22,538 nucleotides of DNA from a virus. A program made the translations under genes and the position numbers. This document shows positions 3,945-22,538 of the stretch, one piece after another (within the stretch, counting starts at the first letter, position 1; each line of letters opens with the position of its first letter). The DNA lies in the IMG/VR virus record IMGVR_UViG_3300047557_002201, positions 1 through 22,538 of that record. One strand, written 5' to 3'. Below the pieces are notes generated by a model. The model saw only the letters and a program-made list of their open reading frames with translations. It was not told where the DNA came from and searched no databases.

Positions 3945-4391
3945 ATGGGGCAGCGTTTTGAAACGCTGTTCCCTGATTTCGCCTCACTGATGCCTCAGGA
4001 CGGTAGTGTAGAAACCATACAGGACTACACTTACCGTCCTGACTGCAATCTGAGGATCGGAACAGCAGCGCCGATCACGCGCAAAGTACTGAGAATAGAG
4101 CGGTTCAATCAGAACGACCCGTTAGCAGTCCCGCCGCCATTGGGATTATGGAAGGGGCTTTTCCTTCGGATTCCCTGCACCAACGGCTACGGGTACAGAT
4201 TTATTTCCAGAGTGGCCGGAAATATAATAGAATTAGATAGCAGCCTGAACTCAGACCCGATTCCGGGGCATACCGGCGTTCGGATCGTGACCGGGTACGC
4301 ACAGCACTACATTGATATGAGGATATTTGACCTTTGGGAGAAGGGCAAATTAGAAATCAAAAACGGGAGATACTATAAACTAGATGTCTGA
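3945..4391 (+). CDS. hypothetical tail-module beta protein
   Basis: This 148-residue protein starts four bases after the tube stop and overlaps the chaperone gene by 8 nt. I do not recognise the family. Residues about 45-115 contain a strand-rich unit (KVLRIERF, then FISRVAGNIIELDSSLNSDPIPGHTGVRIV) that fits the same small beta module seen in the tube protein: a hydrophobic strand pair, a 'v.GN.ieLd..l' turn, and a final strand after a Pro/Gly loop. It ends in an Asp/Trp/Lys-rich helix and strand (IFDLWEKGKLEIKNGRYYKL). A minor tail or tube-associated protein is plausible from its place between tube and chaperone genes, but no function can be assigned. Confidence 0.7.
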   Translation: MGQRFETLFPDFASLMPQDGSVETIQDYTYRPDCNLRIGTAAPITRKVLRIERFNQNDPLAVPPPLGLWKGLFLRIPCTNGYGYRFISRVAGNIIELDSSLNSDPIPGHTGVRIVTGYAQHYIDMRIFDLWEKGKLEIKNGRYYKLDV

Positions 4392-5265
4392 ATTAAAAGA
4401 TGAAACGCTAACAAAAGCCTACAACGCGCTTGCCGCCTTGCAGAGCGAAATGTCACAGGGAGAACTGGACGCGCTTTTCAGTCGGTTGATGGCCAGCCCG
4501 GAGCGGATGCGGGAAGAACTCAAGGCCGAAGTGATTGAGGAGATCAGGAGTGATCTACAGATTGATGAAGATCCGTTCCCCTGTGATTTTTACACGGAGT
4601 CCGATCAGACCGTTGTGCTTGGCATGGGTAAGCATGAGCGTCAAATTAAGATTCGATACCTGAATATTGAGGACGCCACACGGTTATCTGCACACATCCC
4701 GGACGTGATCCGCTATGTGTACAACAAGGGGCCTTCACTGCTCAACAACCTGAGCTTTGAAACCCTGATCAATGACGTGCTTATGCATGGCCTGCGTGAC
4801 ACAAGCAACGGCAAGCCGACCAAGTTTATGATTAAACTGTACGAGGAGTTGGCCGCTTGTCTGTCTACGCCTGACAACTACGTGACGGCAGGATTTCTCC
4901 GCGCCTGTCAGCCTGCACAGATTATCAATGCCATCAAAAGGCTGGTGTCTGTGAACCAAAGTTTTTTTATCGATCTGTGGCACGAAGTGCCTGGGAGTAT
5001 CCGCACCTTAGTGGATACGAATTTTGGGAGGATTATGAGGACTATAAAGAATCTCGGGCAGAAGGTCTCGGCGTCAGTGGCGGCGCTGGATTCTGCTGGT
5101 GGGATCAGCAGTGGTGGTACGACGAATGGATCGATCTCATTGCCGAAGAATACGGATTCGGATTCAGGGAAATCCAAAGCCTCAACCTCGTCGAAGCCTT
5201 CCGCCTCAAAACGGCGATCAACCGGCGCAAAGACCGCACCGGCTACGTCGAATGGAGGGCGCTAG
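4384..5265 (+). CDS. tail assembly chaperone, short form (G-type)
   Basis: This 293-residue product is read without frameshifting. Residues 1-195 are mostly helical and acidic (AYNALAALQSEMSQGELDAL, then RMREELKAEVIEEIRSDLQ), with a beta strand block (QTVVLGMGKHERQIKIRYLN) and helices up to the slippery site. After residue 195 the zero frame continues with about 45 helical residues, then a Ser/Thr/Gly/Lys-rich tail (residues about 238-293) with no predicted fold. In lambda-like phages the short protein, analogous to gpG, coats the tape measure and is made in large excess over the fused form. Position between the tube and tape measure genes is the expected one. The role is inferred from gene order and the frameshift signal rather than sequence identity. 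Confidence 0.8.
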   Translation: MSELKDETLTKAYNALAALQSEMSQGELDALFSRLMASPERMREELKAEVIEEIRSDLQIDEDPFPCDFYTESDQTVVLGMGKHERQIKIRYLNIEDATRLSAHIPDVIRYVYNKGPSLLNNLSFETLINDVLMHGLRDTSNGKPTKFMIKLYEELAACLSTPDNYVTAGFLRACQPAQIINAIKRLVSVNQSFFIDLWHEVPGSIRTLVDTNFGRIMRTIKNLGQKVSASVAALDSAGGISSGGTTNGSISLPKNTDSDSGKSKASTSSKPSASKRRSTGAKTAPATSNGGR

Positions 5266-5393
5266 AGGATGCACAGAGCGGAGAAGATAAGCCAACCAAA
5301 GACCGCAAGAGCAAGCGTATCCTTAAACAGGCATACGCCAGCGCTGAGAACTTCTCCGCCTATATCCGGGGGCATTGTGGGTATGCGGACTGA
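4384..5393 (+). CDS. tail assembly chaperone, -1 frameshift fusion (GT-type)
   Basis: Ribosomes that slip -1 at 4962-4968 read residues 1-195 in the first frame, then continue from codon 4968-4970 to the stop at 5391-5393, giving 336 residues. The added 141 residues are a folded, aromatic-rich domain (EYPHLSGYEFWEDYEDY, then WWDQQWWYDEWIDLIAEEYGFGFREI) and a basic helix (AFRLKTAINRRKDRTGY). In lambda the T part recruits the tube protein to the tape measure-chaperone complex, and the ratio of short to fused product matters for assembly. The downstream frame has only an internal GTG (4977) with no ribosome binding site, so independent translation is unlikely. The stop overlaps the next start (TGATG at 5391-5395), which supports the frame being translated. 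Coordinates span both parts; the join duplicates base 4968. Confidence 0.85.
4962..4968 (+). other. programmed -1 ribosomal frameshift heptamer
   Basis: Seven consecutive T read T TTT TTT in the chaperone frame (codons AGT TTT TTT). This is the canonical X XXY YYZ arrangement in which both P- and A-site tRNAs can re-pair one base back. The following -1 frame is open to 5393 and encodes an aromatic-rich domain expected for the T part of a tail chaperone. Confidence 0.88.
4979..4991 (+). promoter_or_regulatory. possible frameshift-stimulating hairpin
   Basis: A perfect five-base-pair stem (GGCAC pairing with GTGCC) closes a GAA triloop, starting 10 nt after the slippery heptamer. Stimulatory stems or pseudoknots normally start 5-9 nt downstream, so the spacing is slightly long and the stem short. 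It may pair further as a pseudoknot; I could not establish that by eye. Confidence 0.4.
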
Positions 5394-6094: not shown

Positions 6095-6444
6095 GTTTCA
6101 AAAGCCCCAAGGACGATATTATTGGTGAATTAAAAGCCATGATGCGCGAGGCCAATACAGGCCGGGCCTATATCACCATCTCGAACGACACGTTTTATAC
6201 CGGATTCGTGGAATTTGGTACGTCCAGAATGGAACCCCGCGCCATGGTGCGCCGCGCCACGCCTGCTATCGAAAAATGGATGGATGCGGAACTCAAAAAG
6301 ATAGAATTTCCGACCATCGGCGAGATTGAAAAGCTACTCGACAACCTGAAAGACGTGGCTTTGAACGAGATCAAGATCAGAACTCCTGTCAAAACAGGAC
6401 TTTTACGCCGTTCATGGGAAGCAGAAGGGCCTTTCTATGGCTAA
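6091..6444 (+). CDS. HK97 gp10-like tail protein, motifs in reversed order
   Basis: This 117-residue protein overlaps its upstream neighbour as ATGA. It carries both hallmarks of the HK97 gp10 family: a 'yvEFGT' strand with a following Pro-rich segment (residues 36-57, FYTGFVEFGTSRMEPRAMVR) and 'tPVkTGlLrrS' (residues 98-108). In the usual family the PVxTGxLR motif comes first and the VEFGT motif after it. Here the order is inverted, joined by a helix (residues 57-95), which looks like a circular permutation of the fold. Family members act as head-tail joining or tail-completion components and usually lie before the tube gene. Here the gene is after the chaperone pair, so its role may have diverged. 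Confidence 0.6.
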   Translation: MSFKSPKDDIIGELKAMMREANTGRAYITISNDTFYTGFVEFGTSRMEPRAMVRRATPAIEKWMDAELKKIEFPTIGEIEKLLDNLKDVALNEIKIRTPVKTGLLRRSWEAEGPFYG

Positions 6445-7561
6445 AACCCTGTCAGTGTGCATGATTGTAAAGAATGAGGCGGCATTTATTGATGCCGCGA
6501 TCAAAAGTGTGGGAGAGATTGCTGATCAGGTGGTTGTGGTAGACACAGGCTCCACTGATGGCACACAAGAGATAGCCCGTTCTGCCGGTGCTGAGGTGTT
6601 CTCCCTACCTTGGCCCGGCAGTTTTGCGGCCTCCAGAAACGAAAGTATCTCACATGCTACTGGAGATTGGATTTTGATACTGGACGCCGATGAGAAACTG
6701 CACAAAAACTCAGTGCAAAGCCTGCGATACCTGGTTAATTCAGCGCCAGCCGCCCTGATTGAGCTTAAGATTATCAATTACATGGACGATCTACAGGCAC
6801 AGACAGCCTCAGAGCACTATTCTGTTCGGTTATTTCCCAATCACTACGGCCTGTCCTTCACAGGCCGGATTCATGAGCAGTTGGTCGCGCCTCAGGGCGT
6901 GGAGATCCCCCGGCAGTGGTGCAGAGACATCGCCATTGAGCATTACGGCTACCGGCCCAGCGTGGTTAAAGAGCGCAACAAGAGCGAGCGCAATCTGGAT
7001 CTGCTGTTGCAGTGCATCAAAGATGAGCCCGAGAATCCGTTTCATCATTTCAATCTGGCTCAGACCCTGAGCGTATTAGACCATCAGGACGATGCCATCA
7101 GCGCGCTACAGCAAGCCCTGTTTCTGGCCGGTGGGCAAGGCCCCGCATGGGAGGCCGTGGCGTGGATTCAGTTGTTTTCCCTGTTGCTCACGCATCGAGG
7201 CGTTGAGGCTGCCGTCCCCATTCTGGAGCAATGCCCCGAGGATTGCAAAGCCAACCCTGACTACTGGATCGCATTGGCACAGTTCGAGATTGCCTCAGGG
7301 AACGCTCTGAAGGCCATCAATGCCTTTCGCACAGCCGCAGAGTACAAACACCTGCCGATAATGACAAATAGCAGAATAGACCGCTCCAGCGTGACGTGGA
7401 AGCCCTATTTTGGCATCGCAAATGTTTACCTTGCAATGGGAGATCTTGAAACCGCTTATCTTTACCTGATACAGGCCCTTCGGGAGTGCCCGAACAATCC
7501 TGTTGTTAAACAGCAGTACACCGACCTGCGGCAACTGCTTAAGCCCATTGTTGGAGGATAA
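6437..7561 (+). CDS. family 2 glycosyltransferase with C-terminal TPR repeats
   Basis: This 374-residue protein has a GT-A glycosyltransferase domain in residues 1 to about 190: the opening strand LSVCMIVKNEA, the nucleotide-binding DTGSTDGT (residues 36-43), a RNES segment (67-70), and the metal-binding DADE (83-86). These are the hallmarks of the GT2 subgroup that includes SunS and WaaE-like enzymes. Residues about 195-365 are helical repeats of TPR type (HHFNLAQTLSVLDHQDDAISALQQAL, then PYFGIANVYLAMGDLETAYLYLIQAL), which usually bind a protein partner or substrate. There is no signal peptide, so it acts in the cytoplasm. It overlaps the gp10-like gene by 8 nt and ends two bases before the tape measure gene, so it is co-expressed with tail assembly. 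Sugar transfer to a virion protein is a reasonable hypothesis; host cell-surface modification is the alternative. Confidence 0.85.
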   Translation: MAKTLSVCMIVKNEAAFIDAAIKSVGEIADQVVVVDTGSTDGTQEIARSAGAEVFSLPWPGSFAASRNESISHATGDWILILDADEKLHKNSVQSLRYLVNSAPAALIELKIINYMDDLQAQTASEHYSVRLFPNHYGLSFTGRIHEQLVAPQGVEIPRQWCRDIAIEHYGYRPSVVKERNKSERNLDLLLQCIKDEPENPFHHFNLAQTLSVLDHQDDAISALQQALFLAGGQGPAWEAVAWIQLFSLLLTHRGVEAAVPILEQCPEDCKANPDYWIALAQFEIASGNALKAINAFRTAAEYKHLPIMTNSRIDRSSVTWKPYFGIANVYLAMGDLETAYLYLIQALRECPNNPVVKQQYTDLRQLLKPIVGG

Positions 7562-17741: not shown

Positions 17742-18617
17742 ATGACATTTACTACTTGGGGACAATCGGCGACACACAGCACCACAGTGCTGGCCAGTCC
17801 TGCACCAACAACAACAAGCTGCACCGTGGCCGCTATTGGCACAGTTCGTGTCGGCATGTCGGTCTTTATTGATGTCTCCGGCACACCTGAACAGACCGCA
17901 ATCACAGGCATTACCGGGGCAAACGTCACATTCAGCCCGGCCCTGTCCGGGGCTCCCGATGTGGGCGGGGATTTCATCAGTTATCACCAGCCGCTGACTA
18001 ATACCAAACTGAACGGCGGCGCACTCTGGAAAGCCACAGACACGGCCGATCTCGCCGCTACTTCTGTAACCAATATGGCTGATGGTACGCTGGCTTATGT
18101 GCCGGAGGCCGGAGTGTATCGCTATGATTCAGGGGCCTCTGACACAGCAAACGGATTTACTGTGATTCAGCCTTCAGTTGGCGCAGGACGATGGATTCTA
18201 AAGACACCAGAGGGCGGCGGTGAAGGCAGCGCAGAAGAATCCGTATCAGAATTAACAATGTCAATTCAGGACGTTGAACAGTCTGTCGTCAATGTTCAAG
18301 ACCAAATCTTAAGAGCACCTCAAATCTATACATTTACTGAATTTAGAAGCGCGATATCAGTTGCGGCAACTTCTTTTGATTTTGAGTATTTCACATTATC
18401 AGAATCAGGCATAAATTTTGATAGACCAGACGCTGTATTTATTTATCCTCCTATCGGCGCTGATGTAAACCTTATTTTCACTCCTGCCTATTGGAAAGCT
18501 CAGAATGTGGTTGCGTTCAAAGCATACAATCCAACAGCAGGAGCTTTAAGTATTCCCGGGGGCAGATGGTCTATTGTTGTTTTAAGAGATACTTACTGGA
18601 GAGGTTTATATGCCTAG
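17742..18617 (+). CDS. tail fibre or tip adaptor protein, mosaic
   Basis: This 291-residue protein has an AGGAAA ribosome binding site at 17731-17736. Residues about 10-80 are the small beta module that recurs in this window (SCTVAAIGTVRVGMSVFID, then ITGITGANVTFSPALSGAP). Residues about 90-160 match a module common in phage fibres, with GALWKATDTADLAA, MADGTLAYVPEAGVYRYD and GRWILKTP. A Gly/Glu linker (GGGEGSAEES) follows, and then a short helix (VEQSVVNVQDQIL) and a new beta domain. The base composition changes at this linker (near 18230) from GC-rich to AT-rich codons (ATA, AGA, TTA), so the C-terminal 120 residues look imported. It probably links hub and adhesin or contacts the host. It overlaps the next gene by 8 nt. 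Confidence 0.7.
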   Translation: MTFTTWGQSATHSTTVLASPAPTTTSCTVAAIGTVRVGMSVFIDVSGTPEQTAITGITGANVTFSPALSGAPDVGGDFISYHQPLTNTKLNGGALWKATDTADLAATSVTNMADGTLAYVPEAGVYRYDSGASDTANGFTVIQPSVGAGRWILKTPEGGGEGSAEESVSELTMSIQDVEQSVVNVQDQILRAPQIYTFTEFRSAISVAATSFDFEYFTLSESGINFDRPDAVFIYPPIGADVNLIFTPAYWKAQNVVAFKAYNPTAGALSIPGGRWSIVVLRDTYWRGLYA

Positions 18618-19680
18618 TTTATCCGCAATAGGAATGAGAACAGCCCTGCTATCAGGCCAATATACAGCAGGAACATTTGAGACAGCACTTGCTACAGCCG
18701 CCAACGCAGGGTATTTTACTGAGCTTTGCAATACCTATGGATCGGCAGACATTCTTGTGAATAGCAGCACAGCACTCCCTGTTATTGTTGGCTCAAGCAC
18801 AGCAAGAACAATCGCTACAAATGCACCAACATTTTTAAGAGCTTGTGCCAACAGCAGTTACGCCACAGAACAACTTGTTACCACAACAAACGGAGCCAAT
18901 TTATTTGCGCTTGTTCTTCGTGATAATACAGGCGGAAAATTTTCACACTGGCGTGACATCACCACAAATTACAACAGAATTAAATCATGGGTAAACGCAT
19001 CAGGCTCAAAACTGAAAAGCCAAACATTCACAAGCTCAGGAACATGGACAAAACCAACCACGCTTTTAGCAATGTCTATTTTTGCTGTAGCAGGCGGCGG
19101 TAAAGGATCTCAGGATGATTACGGCGGCGGCGCAGGTGGCGGCGAAATTGAGTGTGTCAATGTAGCGTCTGGATCTTTGCCCGGTTCAAATCAGACTGTA
19201 ACCATTGGCGCTGGATCAACAAGCACAGCATCATCAGGCGGTGATACAACTGTTGGAACGCTAATAACCGCATCAGGTGGCGGATCGTCCTCCACTGCAA
19301 CTGGCGGCACTGGTGGCGGAACAACCGCCAACGGTGGGTATATTGCTTTTACAGAATGGAAAACACCATTAACAGCAGCGTTTCAGTGCGTCAATGCTGC
19401 TCAAAAGGGTGGGAATGGAGCCTCTGGCGCAGCGTCTACATGGCTCCCGGGGTCAGATGGTTTGCCCGGATCTGGCGGAAACCCCGCTTATAATGCAACT
19501 GCTCTTGTTTTATCTACAGGCGGCAAGGCTTATGGCGGCGGCGGAGGCTCTGGTGAGAACGGATCAAGCGCCGGAGGCGCAGCCGCAGCAAACACAGGCG
19601 GCGGCGGCGGCGGTGGAACTGGAGCTGCTGGCGGCAATGGCGGTTCAGGAATCGCTGTTATTTATTGGTTAGAGGGCTAA
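18230..19680 (+). other. AT-rich receptor-binding cassette, likely exchanged
   Basis: From about 18230 codons shift to AT-rich choices (many TTA, ATA, AGA, ACA, GCA) until about 19080, after which the glycine codons raise GC but A-rich codons remain. The genes on both sides, from the capsid to 18220 and from 19684 onward, use GC-richer CTG/GCC/GGC codons. The left edge lies at the Gly/Glu linker of the fibre adaptor, a sensible recombination joint. No repeats or integrase sequences flank it. This was judged by eye, without a calculation. Confidence 0.6.
18610..19680 (+). CDS. glycine-rich tail fibre adhesin
   Basis: This 356-residue protein starts at ATG 18610 behind GGAGAGG (18598-18604). 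Residues 1-130 are an unrecognised Ala/Thr-rich domain in AT-rich codons. From FTSSGTWTKPTT (about residue 142) the sequence becomes the glycine-rich domain found in many fibre and adhesin proteins: short hydrophobic strands (MSIFAVAGGGKG) alternate with Gly runs (GGGAGGGE, GGTGGGTTANGG, TGGGGGGGTGAAGGNGGSG) and the chain closes with IAVIYWLEG. Such Gly runs form polyglycine-II helices in T-even gp38-type adhesins, with loops between them binding the receptor. The loops containing EWKTPL and STWLPGSDGLPGSG would be the variable receptor-contacting parts. It is the best candidate for host recognition in this window. Confidence 0.75.
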   Translation: MPSLSAIGMRTALLSGQYTAGTFETALATAANAGYFTELCNTYGSADILVNSSTALPVIVGSSTARTIATNAPTFLRACANSSYATEQLVTTTNGANLFALVLRDNTGGKFSHWRDITTNYNRIKSWVNASGSKLKSQTFTSSGTWTKPTTLLAMSIFAVAGGGKGSQDDYGGGAGGGEIECVNVASGSLPGSNQTVTIGAGSTSTASSGGDTTVGTLITASGGGSSSTATGGTGGGTTANGGYIAFTEWKTPLTAAFQCVNAAQKGGNGASGAASTWLPGSDGLPGSGGNPAYNATALVLSTGGKAYGGGGGSGENGSSAGGAAAANTGGGGGGGTGAAGGNGGSGIAVIYWLEG

Positions 19681-19683
19681 ACC

Positions 19684-20559
19684 ATGCTCGATCCATACAA
19701 AGGCATAGACGATCAAGTTTACCTGAAAGCCGCGCAGCGGCAGTATGGGTCTGATACGGTGCTGTGGCCCAACGCAGGCCATGCCTACCAATGGCATGCC
19801 AAACGTCCTGCTAATGAACAGCGGTATCCGATCAGCCTGCAAGCCTATTCTGACTCACTCTACAGCCAGAATTGGCGCATAACCATGGCTGAGGGAGTGG
19901 ACAAGTACGCATGGCGATGGCTCAACACGTTCTCGCTTGATTGGGCTGTCCTGCCCGTGATGTTTGTCGCTGCTGATGTGATCTGGGAGGTGCAGGCGGT
20001 CAAGGAAGCTGCTGCAAGGTGGGCGAGAAACCTGGAATGGACTGCCGACTGGTACGCCTCCAAGTTAGACGGCAAACGGTTCAGAGTGTGCAAGCCACAA
20101 GTGATCGGTGATCGTGGCACAGCGGCAGATATTCAGAAGCTCTATCTCTCCAGCATGGCCCCTGATAAGCGGTTCCTCCCGTGGGAAACATGCCACAAGA
20201 ATTACAACACCGCCATGGCCGGGCGTGTCAACGCCAACCTGATCTATGCGATCACTCACTACGCAGGCCCACAGGCAGACTGGGACTATGCTGCAGCAGG
20301 TGGCGGCCCGTATCTGTTTGTCTCCAGTTTTGCAACGCTTCACGATCTCCAGAACTTCTATTCTCTCACCGATCCCAGAAAACAAACACTCGCCTATGCC
20401 ATTGCTCACGAAATCGGGCATTGCTTTGGCTTGGGGCATACAGAATCTCAACTCGCAGCAGATTGGCAGCAATCAATTATGCAGGCGGCACGTCCTCCAG
20501 CGGCGATTCTTGCGGACTATGAGCGCAAGCGCCTGCTAAATAATCCATTCTTCTCATGA
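19684..20559 (+). CDS. metzincin-type zinc metalloprotease
   Basis: This 291-residue protein carries the extended zinc site HEIGHCFGLGH at residues 242-252 (His242, catalytic Glu243, His246, Gly249, His252), the HExxHxxGxxH signature of the metzincin clan. Fourteen residues on, QSIMQ supplies the Met-turn with Met266. Together these make a metzincin likely rather than a chance HExxH. The 240 residues before it have no recognised domain; CKPQV (around residue 138) loosely recalls a cysteine switch, but this is weak. A signal peptide is absent, so the protein acts in the cytoplasm or as a virion part. It lies between the adhesin and the holin cassette and follows the fibre gene after only three bases. 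It may process virion proteins or cut a host surface protein. Which family within the clan is unknown. Confidence 0.8.
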   Translation: MLDPYKGIDDQVYLKAAQRQYGSDTVLWPNAGHAYQWHAKRPANEQRYPISLQAYSDSLYSQNWRITMAEGVDKYAWRWLNTFSLDWAVLPVMFVAADVIWEVQAVKEAAARWARNLEWTADWYASKLDGKRFRVCKPQVIGDRGTAADIQKLYLSSMAPDKRFLPWETCHKNYNTAMAGRVNANLIYAITHYAGPQADWDYAAAGGGPYLFVSSFATLHDLQNFYSLTDPRKQTLAYAIAHEIGHCFGLGHTESQLAADWQQSIMQAARPPAAILADYERKRLLNNPFFS

Positions 20560-20568
20560 GGTACTACT

Positions 20569-20874
20569 ATGAATTTCCCAGAACAAATGACAGCACAGGC
20601 CGTTACAGCCCTTCAGGCCATTGTCAGCAAAGAGGTTAACCGTGTTGAATCCACCCTTAAAGGCACCAGCGGCGAAGACAAAAAAAATATCGTTAAGATC
20701 AGTGTGGTTAAGATTCTCGAAATCGTGTACGATCTTGCTGATCACTCCCTCAACTGCCCGGCGCTTGTGGATACAGTGGCAAAAGAAACCCTGATCCCAA
20801 TTATTGCAGACCTGATTGACGAATCAGTGAAAAACTTCAATCTGTTCGGCTGGATTGAGAACAATGGCCTTTGA
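20569..20874 (+). CDS. small helical protein of the lysis region
   Basis: This 101-residue protein has GAGG at 20558-20561 and ATG 20569. It is almost all helix, with an Ala/Gln-rich start (MTAQAVTALQAIVSKEVNRVES) and a Leu/Ile-rich middle (NIVKISVVKILEIVYDLADHS), then another helix (DTVAKETLIPIIADLIDESVK). It has no clear transmembrane span and no enzymatic motif. It overlaps the holin gene by 11 nt, and its constant pairing with the holin suggests a helper or regulatory role, such as modulation of lysis timing. That is only an inference from position. Confidence 0.7.
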   Translation: MNFPEQMTAQAVTALQAIVSKEVNRVESTLKGTSGEDKKNIVKISVVKILEIVYDLADHSLNCPALVDTVAKETLIPIIADLIDESVKNFNLFGWIENNGL

Positions 20875-21196
20875 TTGGAAGGATATGCTGGAAATGGCCC
20901 GCTGTGGGGCCTTTGCCTTAATTGGATCTGTGGCAAGGACGCTTGCTGACAATCTGGGCAAAGACAAGACTAAGACCGCACTGGTGGCCCTGATGGTGGC
21001 CAATGGCGCTGTCTCCGGGTTCTGTGGCATGATGGTTTTCCCTCTGAGTAAGATCATGCACTTAGACCCTTATTGGACGATGTTTCTTTCTGGCATGGCC
21101 GGGTGGATGGGCGGAAATTTCCTGACCATTCTTGAGCAGCGAGTCGTATCAAAACTCGGAGGAAAAGCCGATGTCAGCCCTGATAATCCTAGTTGA
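20864..21196 (+). CDS. LydA-like holin
   Basis: This 110-residue protein starts at ATG 20864; the TTG at 20855 would add three residues and is less likely. Three membrane segments are visible: residues about 12-28 (RCGAFALIGSVARTLA), 35-58 (TALVALMVANGAVSGFCGMMVF) and 68-90 (YWTMFLSGMAGWMGGNFLTIL), followed by a charged tail (EQRVVSKLGGKADVSPDNPS). The third segment, with its Gly-Trp and a following 'leqR' motif, resembles the LydA-type holin family. Holins gather in the inner membrane and open at a set time so that the endolysin can reach the wall. It overlaps the upstream gene by 11 nt and the next small gene by 26 nt, so the three are translated together. Confidence 0.7.
   Translation: MAFDWKDMLEMARCGAFALIGSVARTLADNLGKDKTKTALVALMVANGAVSGFCGMMVFPLSKIMHLDPYWTMFLSGMAGWMGGNFLTILEQRVVSKLGGKADVSPDNPS
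21158..21162 (+). promoter_or_regulatory. GGAGG ribosome binding site for the 53-residue gene
   Basis: A perfect GGAGG lies 8 nt before ATG 21171, inside the end of the holin gene. It fixes the start at 21171 instead of the longer in-frame start at 21132. Confidence 0.7.
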
Positions 21197-21835: not shown

Positions 21836-22538
21836 ATGATCACAGCACAAGAAGCAAAAGCTAAACTGAAGCAGATTGACGCCGGTATCCGGCCTGAGGT
21901 TGAGCAGTTGGCCGGGCGGATTCTGGACAAGCAAGAGACGCTGAACGTGGATAACCACGACAACACCGAACAGGCCAAGCGCCTGACGCTGTTCATTGAG
22001 CGCAGACTGGCACAGCCTCATCTGAACTATATGCCTGCTGATCAGGTCAACGGCGTCTGGGGCGGATCTCTCACTGATGCGCTCGAGGCGGTAGCCAAGC
22101 GGTACAACTTGGCGTTTGACGCTGACCATCCTGCCATCGGCGGCGACCTGCTCCGGGCTATTCTTGACGGCAGTAAGGCTGCTGAGGCCCCTGTCACTCC
22201 GGCCAACACCTATGCCTGGTTGAAAGCTCAGGTTCTGGCCGCTGGTCACAAATGGGACTCCGACCAGATGCGCTTTAACGTGGTCGGTATCCGTGGCTAT
22301 ATGGTTCCGGGGGGCAGAGTCCCCAATGACGGAAACCTGTGGAATGACGTGATCTTTCTCGCATGGATTGACGACAAGGGCGCAGAGCGCATCAAAGCCT
22401 ATCCCGCCACGGTTGACCCGGGCCGGTACTATTACAGCACACGCCCGATCAACCCCAAGGGCTGCGCTCACCTGATGCCCGGCCAGTACAGTTATCAAAA
22501 GGGCAGCCACAACGGACACCCGGCCTTTGTACAGGCCG
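21836..22538 (+). CDS. candidate wall-acting or virion protein, 3' truncated
   Basis: The gene starts at ATG 21836, six bases after the previous stop, and is open to the end of the window (234 codons). Residues about 1-65 are helical. Residues about 70-115 contain VNGVWGGSLTDALEAVAKRY, which resembles the 'dGvwG..t..Al' pattern of peptidoglycan-binding domains. From about residue 150 a beta domain shows spaced conserved-looking residues (VGIRGY, NLWNDVIFLAWID, YPATVDPGRYYYS, LMPGQYSYQKGSHNG) that recall a domain I have met in phage proteins but cannot name. The location behind the holin makes an endolysin or wall-binding protein plausible. No classical lysozyme, amidase or peptidase motif is seen, so the function stays unproven. 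Confidence 0.55.
   Translation, partial: MITAQEAKAKLKQIDAGIRPEVEQLAGRILDKQETLNVDNHDNTEQAKRLTLFIERRLAQPHLNYMPADQVNGVWGGSLTDALEAVAKRYNLAFDADHPAIGGDLLRAILDGSKAAEAPVTPANTYAWLKAQVLAAGHKWDSDQMRFNVVGIRGYMVPGGRVPNDGNLWNDVIFLAWIDDKGAERIKAYPATVDPGRYYYSTRPINPKGCAHLMPGQYSYQKGSHNGHPAFVQA

Follow-up and report, generated by a model that had tools for sequence, protein, structure and literature searches.

Sequence comparison places the protein encoded at positions 19,684 to 20,559 of a 22.5-kb virus record among the metzincins, outside the assigned families of this clan and grouped with two planctomycete proteins. The three proteins appear to constitute a small metzincin family, and the presence of this family in a phage appears to be new. 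The window, i.e., the whole stretch of DNA that was analyzed (22,538 nucleotides), carries in this order a partial capsid gene and the genes for head-tail proteins, tape measure, tail proteins, fibre, metzincin and lysis. Our best guess, and a tentative one, is that the protein would be an endopeptidase that travels with the tail beside the fibre and cuts the host envelope at adsorption.

Zinc site, domain layout and family placement

The following features were assigned to the open reading frame and its product, with the basis given in brackets:

19684..20559, + strand: metzincin-type zinc peptidase ORF, 291 aa, without signal peptide (full-length bacterial homologues)
19696..19941, + strand: aa 5-86, two tandem repeats of ~38 aa, A..QYG...Y.W, putative binding region (bacterial profile score)
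19942..20358, + strand: aa 87-225, first part of the catalytic domain, ahead of the zinc helix (bacterial profile score)
20407..20439, + strand: aa 242-252, zinc site HEIGHCFGLGH with the ligands His242, His246 and His252, catalytic Glu243, and Gly249 (direct sequence)
20473..20481, + strand: aa 264-266, Met-turn SIM with Met266 (direct sequence)
20491..20556, + strand: aa 270-291, conserved C-terminal tail [RK]PP.AIL...E...LL..PFF after the Met-turn (three-protein alignment)

Only one codon lies between an in-frame stop and the ATG of this reading frame, so that a longer N-terminus is impossible, and the best 15-residue hydropathy mean within the first 62 residues is negative. Because the N-terminus is not hydrophobic and no longer start is possible, the protein has no signal peptide, in agreement with the sequence-only reading. 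That reading had also described the zinc site and a SIM Met-turn 14 residues further on. Both were found at the respective residues (Met266 follows His252 by 14 residues, the Met-turn being assigned by sequence only). In an alignment of the phage protein with its two bacterial homologues (n = 3), H242, E243, H246, Gly249 and H252 as well as the SIMQ sequence were invariant. When the phage protein was shuffled, the HExxHxxGxxH pattern occurred once in 200,000 shuffles. The proposed identity as a member of the metzincin clan, MA(M), was borne out by the motif, the Met-turn spacing, weak matches to Pfam and PDB entries and the full-length homologues with the same site. AlphaFold models of the phage protein as a single sequence (pLDDT 34) and of aa 87-291 together with 17 viral-contig and bacterial metzincins (pLDDT 47) were both too weak to judge the zinc-site geometry; Foldseek and VIA-align, applied to the low-confidence model with pLDDT 47, gave no usable match, which speaks neither for nor against the fold.

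A 240-residue N-terminal region had previously been described as unrecognised. Comparison with the bacterial homologues divided this region into the repeats (aa 5-86) and the beginning of the catalytic domain (aa 87-225). Using profiles of only the two bacterial proteins, and with the best score of 2000 shuffles given in brackets, the repeats scored 22.5 bits (10.5), aa 87-225 scored 49.2 bits (6.2), aa 226-291 scored 53.1 bits (13.0) and the whole catalytic domain scored 101 bits (6.1). By this comparison aa 87-291 is the entire catalytic domain, and only aa 5-86 is a separate repeat region. A separate unrecognised domain of 240 residues was rejected because aa 87-225 are homologous to the bacterial catalytic domain. 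Both phage repeats resemble the bacterial repeats, repeat 1 scoring well above shuffles against them, whereas the likeness of the two phage repeats to each other did not exceed that of shuffles; as judged by these scores, the phage repeats are diverged from one another. Searched on its own, the repeat region had no counterpart in Pfam or in any further protein from 199 planctomycete genomes, and no PDB match was convincing.

Among the Pfam models, Reprolysin_3 (PF13582) matched the phage protein barely above its cut-off (E = 1.3e-4, 22.9 bits versus 22.4) and remained below it for the two bacterial homologues (15.1 and 13.1 bits). The zinc-site region weakly matched the reprolysin-like families PF13582, PF13688 and PF13583 as well as ADAMTS-5, with the likeness lying mainly around the zinc site, and sequence matches in the PDB were marginal (ADAMTS-5, 3b8z, E = 0.02; archaemetzincin; similar proteins). 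The residue following the third zinc histidine is Glu in astacins (M12A), Asp in reprolysins/adamalysins (M12B) and Pro in serralysins (M10B). None of these is present in the phage protein, where Thr253 occupies this position (Thr and Ser in the bacterial homologues). The matrixin model (M10A, Pfam Peptidase_M10) reached 19.2 bits, under its cut-off of 24, the archaemetzincin models (M54) reached 13.2 bits versus a cut-off of 24.4 (PF07998) and 16.2 versus 145 (NF033823), and other metzincin Pfam models matched weakly. No family for the phage metzincin was found in the PHROGs.

Planctomycete homologues and metzincins of other viruses

A six-frame search of planctomycete genomes revealed one protein whose match spans the full catalytic region (E = 5e-26, 36% identity), and a follow-up profile search added a second full-length homologue from the same planctomycete order. 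The full-length protein was present in only two genomes, the search covering 10 genomes of the order, 29 of the class and 392 sampled from the phylum Planctomycetota. No match was obtained in 195 Verrucomicrobiota genomes, and 198 Bacteroidota genomes yielded one partial match (E = 1.7e-5). With a further planctomycete metzincin (L035), a profile comparison aligned 42 columns only, and the zinc site lay outside them; this comparison was left out of the assessment.

The two homologues, L044 (413 aa) and L045 (375 aa), are 33% and 31% identical to the phage protein over its entire length and have in common with it the order of two N-terminal repeats, catalytic domain, SIMQ Met-turn and PP.AIL...PFF end. 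In contrast, a hydrophobic signal-like N-terminus and a dockerin-like GDIDGSGIIDISDP segment are found in the bacterial proteins only, and of six cysteines common to both bacterial copies the phage copy retains one (at aa 170). Because of the signal-like N-termini and the dockerin-like segment, an extracellular origin of the family is probable. That the phage protein has neither a signal peptide nor five of the conserved cysteines fits its folding in the reducing cytoplasm; we infer that it would fold there and reach its substrate via the virion or at lysis. The bacterial genes have a chromosomal setting with creatininase and ARPP-1 as neighbours. Since nothing prophage-like was seen around either of them, a prophage origin of the bacterial copies was rejected. 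Homologues of which one kind has secretion features and the other lacks them offer a direct way of asking how a secreted protease became a phage protein.

The sequence-only reading had regarded the combination of zinc site and Met-turn as rare for a phage. This view was abandoned, as the pattern HExGHxxGLGH was found in at least 120 stretches in viral contigs, with a plausible downstream Met in many of the 80 that were examined among those listed; viral contigs commonly encode HExxHxxGxxH proteins. The metzincins of other viral contigs (L002-L006, L054-L133) are likewise HExxHxxGxxH peptidases, some of them beside tail genes, but they resemble the phage protein around the zinc site only. Among the matches listed, none of the scored viral metzincins gave an alignment extending to the repeats or C-terminal tail, and none belonged to the repeat-metzincin family. 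Their neighbours varied and included tail fibre, tail, portal, head-tail adaptor and head maturation protease genes as well as sigma factors. L064 and several others adjoin tail or tail-fibre genes, and no general link between viral metzincins and fibre genes was seen among the neighbours surveyed. No close relatives of the phage protein were found in the IMG/VR, phage and plasmid collections; the tblastn search stayed empty with E values of up to 10 allowed, which makes it a weak negative.

A separate viral matrixin-like family was observed in these contigs (L002, 1462-2139; L004, 7434-8732; L006, 7734-8417). Its signature is SW.PGA..G.S...T...I..A...WQ..C.VQF, and in L002 and L006 the genes lie near phage structural or packaging genes.

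Gene neighbourhood and candidate roles

The metzincin gene is flanked by the following genes:

18610..19680, + strand: upstream Gly-rich tail-fibre protein (phrog_863 tail fiber assembly, E = 5.6e-12; Pfam Gly_rich_2, E = 1.5e-11)
20569..20874, + strand: downstream small protein (weak PHROG matches only)
20855..21196, + strand: holin, LydA / superfamily III (phrog_785, E = 8.5e-17; PF16083, E = 1.3e-11)
21836..22538, + strand: probable endolysin, running past the contig end (phrog_3000, unknown function, E = 1e-13; phrog_33083 endolysin, E = 9e-4)

The gene starts 3 nt past the fibre stop, directly after the fibre gene as had been proposed, and ends 9 nt ahead of the next ORF. Its GC3 of 0.595 matches that of the phage backbone (~0.6). 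The two genes upstream (17742-19680) have a GC3 of 0.42 and 0.36, and this base composition suggests a swapped fibre module.

According to the adsorption reading, the metzincin would be made late, in the cytoplasm, together with the tail and lysis proteins. Placed beside the fibre, it would ride on the tail and act at adsorption; the two N-terminal repeats may bind a component of the cell surface, and the metzincin domain would cut a host envelope protein. The distance of 3 nt to the fibre gene and the existence of viral metzincins adjoining tail or tail-fibre genes speak for a virion-borne protein; the gene is, however, nearly as close to the holin genes, and no virion-anchoring domain was found in the protein. 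As the repeats are common to the secreted bacterial protein, they are not phage-specific attachment parts. Holins can release cytoplasmic proteins, and an accessory function in lysis is a close rival in our analysis, though a rather doubtful one when taken by itself. The metzincin would stay cytoplasmic up to holin opening and would then cut envelope proteins, aiding lysis or virion release. Its gene shares a run with those of the holin and the probable endolysin, and although the protein has no signal peptide, a holin could free it from the cytoplasm. The nearest tested precedent is the phage-derived Mtz-Tim of Listeria, where mtz-tim follows the holin and lysin genes and, when expressed, raised the sensitivity to phage lysis (PMC8235301). 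Mtz, likened here by description, is likewise a metzincin tied to phage lysis genes. Unlike the phage protein, however, it is secreted and works with the TIMP-like lipoprotein Tim (PMC8235301). No partner was recognised beside the phage metzincin: PHROG and Pfam searches of the neighbours gave no match to a TIMP-like lipoprotein, Tim being known here by description. Moreover, the metzincin gene abuts the fibre gene, ahead of the small ORF and the holin. The adsorption reading was slightly favoured over lysis because the metzincin gene is so tightly coupled to that of the fibre and because the homologues are probably extracellular. Its furthest extension, in which a virion-borne repeat-metzincin would open a protein-rich bacterial envelope at adsorption as a protein-cutting equivalent of a tail-spike depolymerase, has a low probability. 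The cutting of host sugars by phages is well known; to our knowledge, and in the literature that we found, the cutting of host surface proteins by phages is hardly documented.

Two further roles have to be weighed against tail-borne or lysis-associated action. Virion processing, an option raised by the sequence-only reading, would mean cleavage of a head, tail or fibre protein in the course of assembly. It would agree with a cytoplasmic product of a late gene adjoining the fibre gene, and maturation of the fibre by cleavage is conceivable. This option lost ground through L174 (1317-2573), a 4.8-kb viral contig whose capsid protein is 86% identical to that of the window. Ahead of its capsid gene, L174 carries a gene for an XkdF-type prohead protease (PF14550, E = 5e-12); the phage contig itself starts inside the capsid gene, and the region upstream of it lies outside the sequence. 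As a relative with so similar a capsid has its own prohead protease, a prohead role is unlikely. Moreover, the repeats are common to a probably extracellular bacterial protein and not to an assembly factor, and virion processing as a whole was considered improbable. About as improbable is the role of recently acquired cargo (a moron) without a function in the lytic cycle, either a protease serving the lysogen or a degenerating passenger. The absence of relatives from the viral, phage and plasmid collections and the patchy bacterial distribution would be in line with such an acquisition. On the other hand, the GC3 equals that of the phage backbone, at ~33% identity every catalytic residue is retained, as is the C-terminal tail, and the gene is tightly packed within the late gene run.

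Some further observations concern the structural genes of the window. The C-terminal part of the capsid protein (2-937) matches tail-tube / Ig-like models (NF052337, phrog_807). The region 4384-5393 probably encodes a pair of tail assembly chaperones with a -1 frameshift: a TTTTTTT heptamer (4962-4968) has the phase required, and from this point the -1 frame stays open into the ORF ending at 5393. The tape measure is of the TP901 type (TIGR01760), and just ahead of it, within the tail module, a family 2 glycosyltransferase is fused to TPR repeats (6437-7561).
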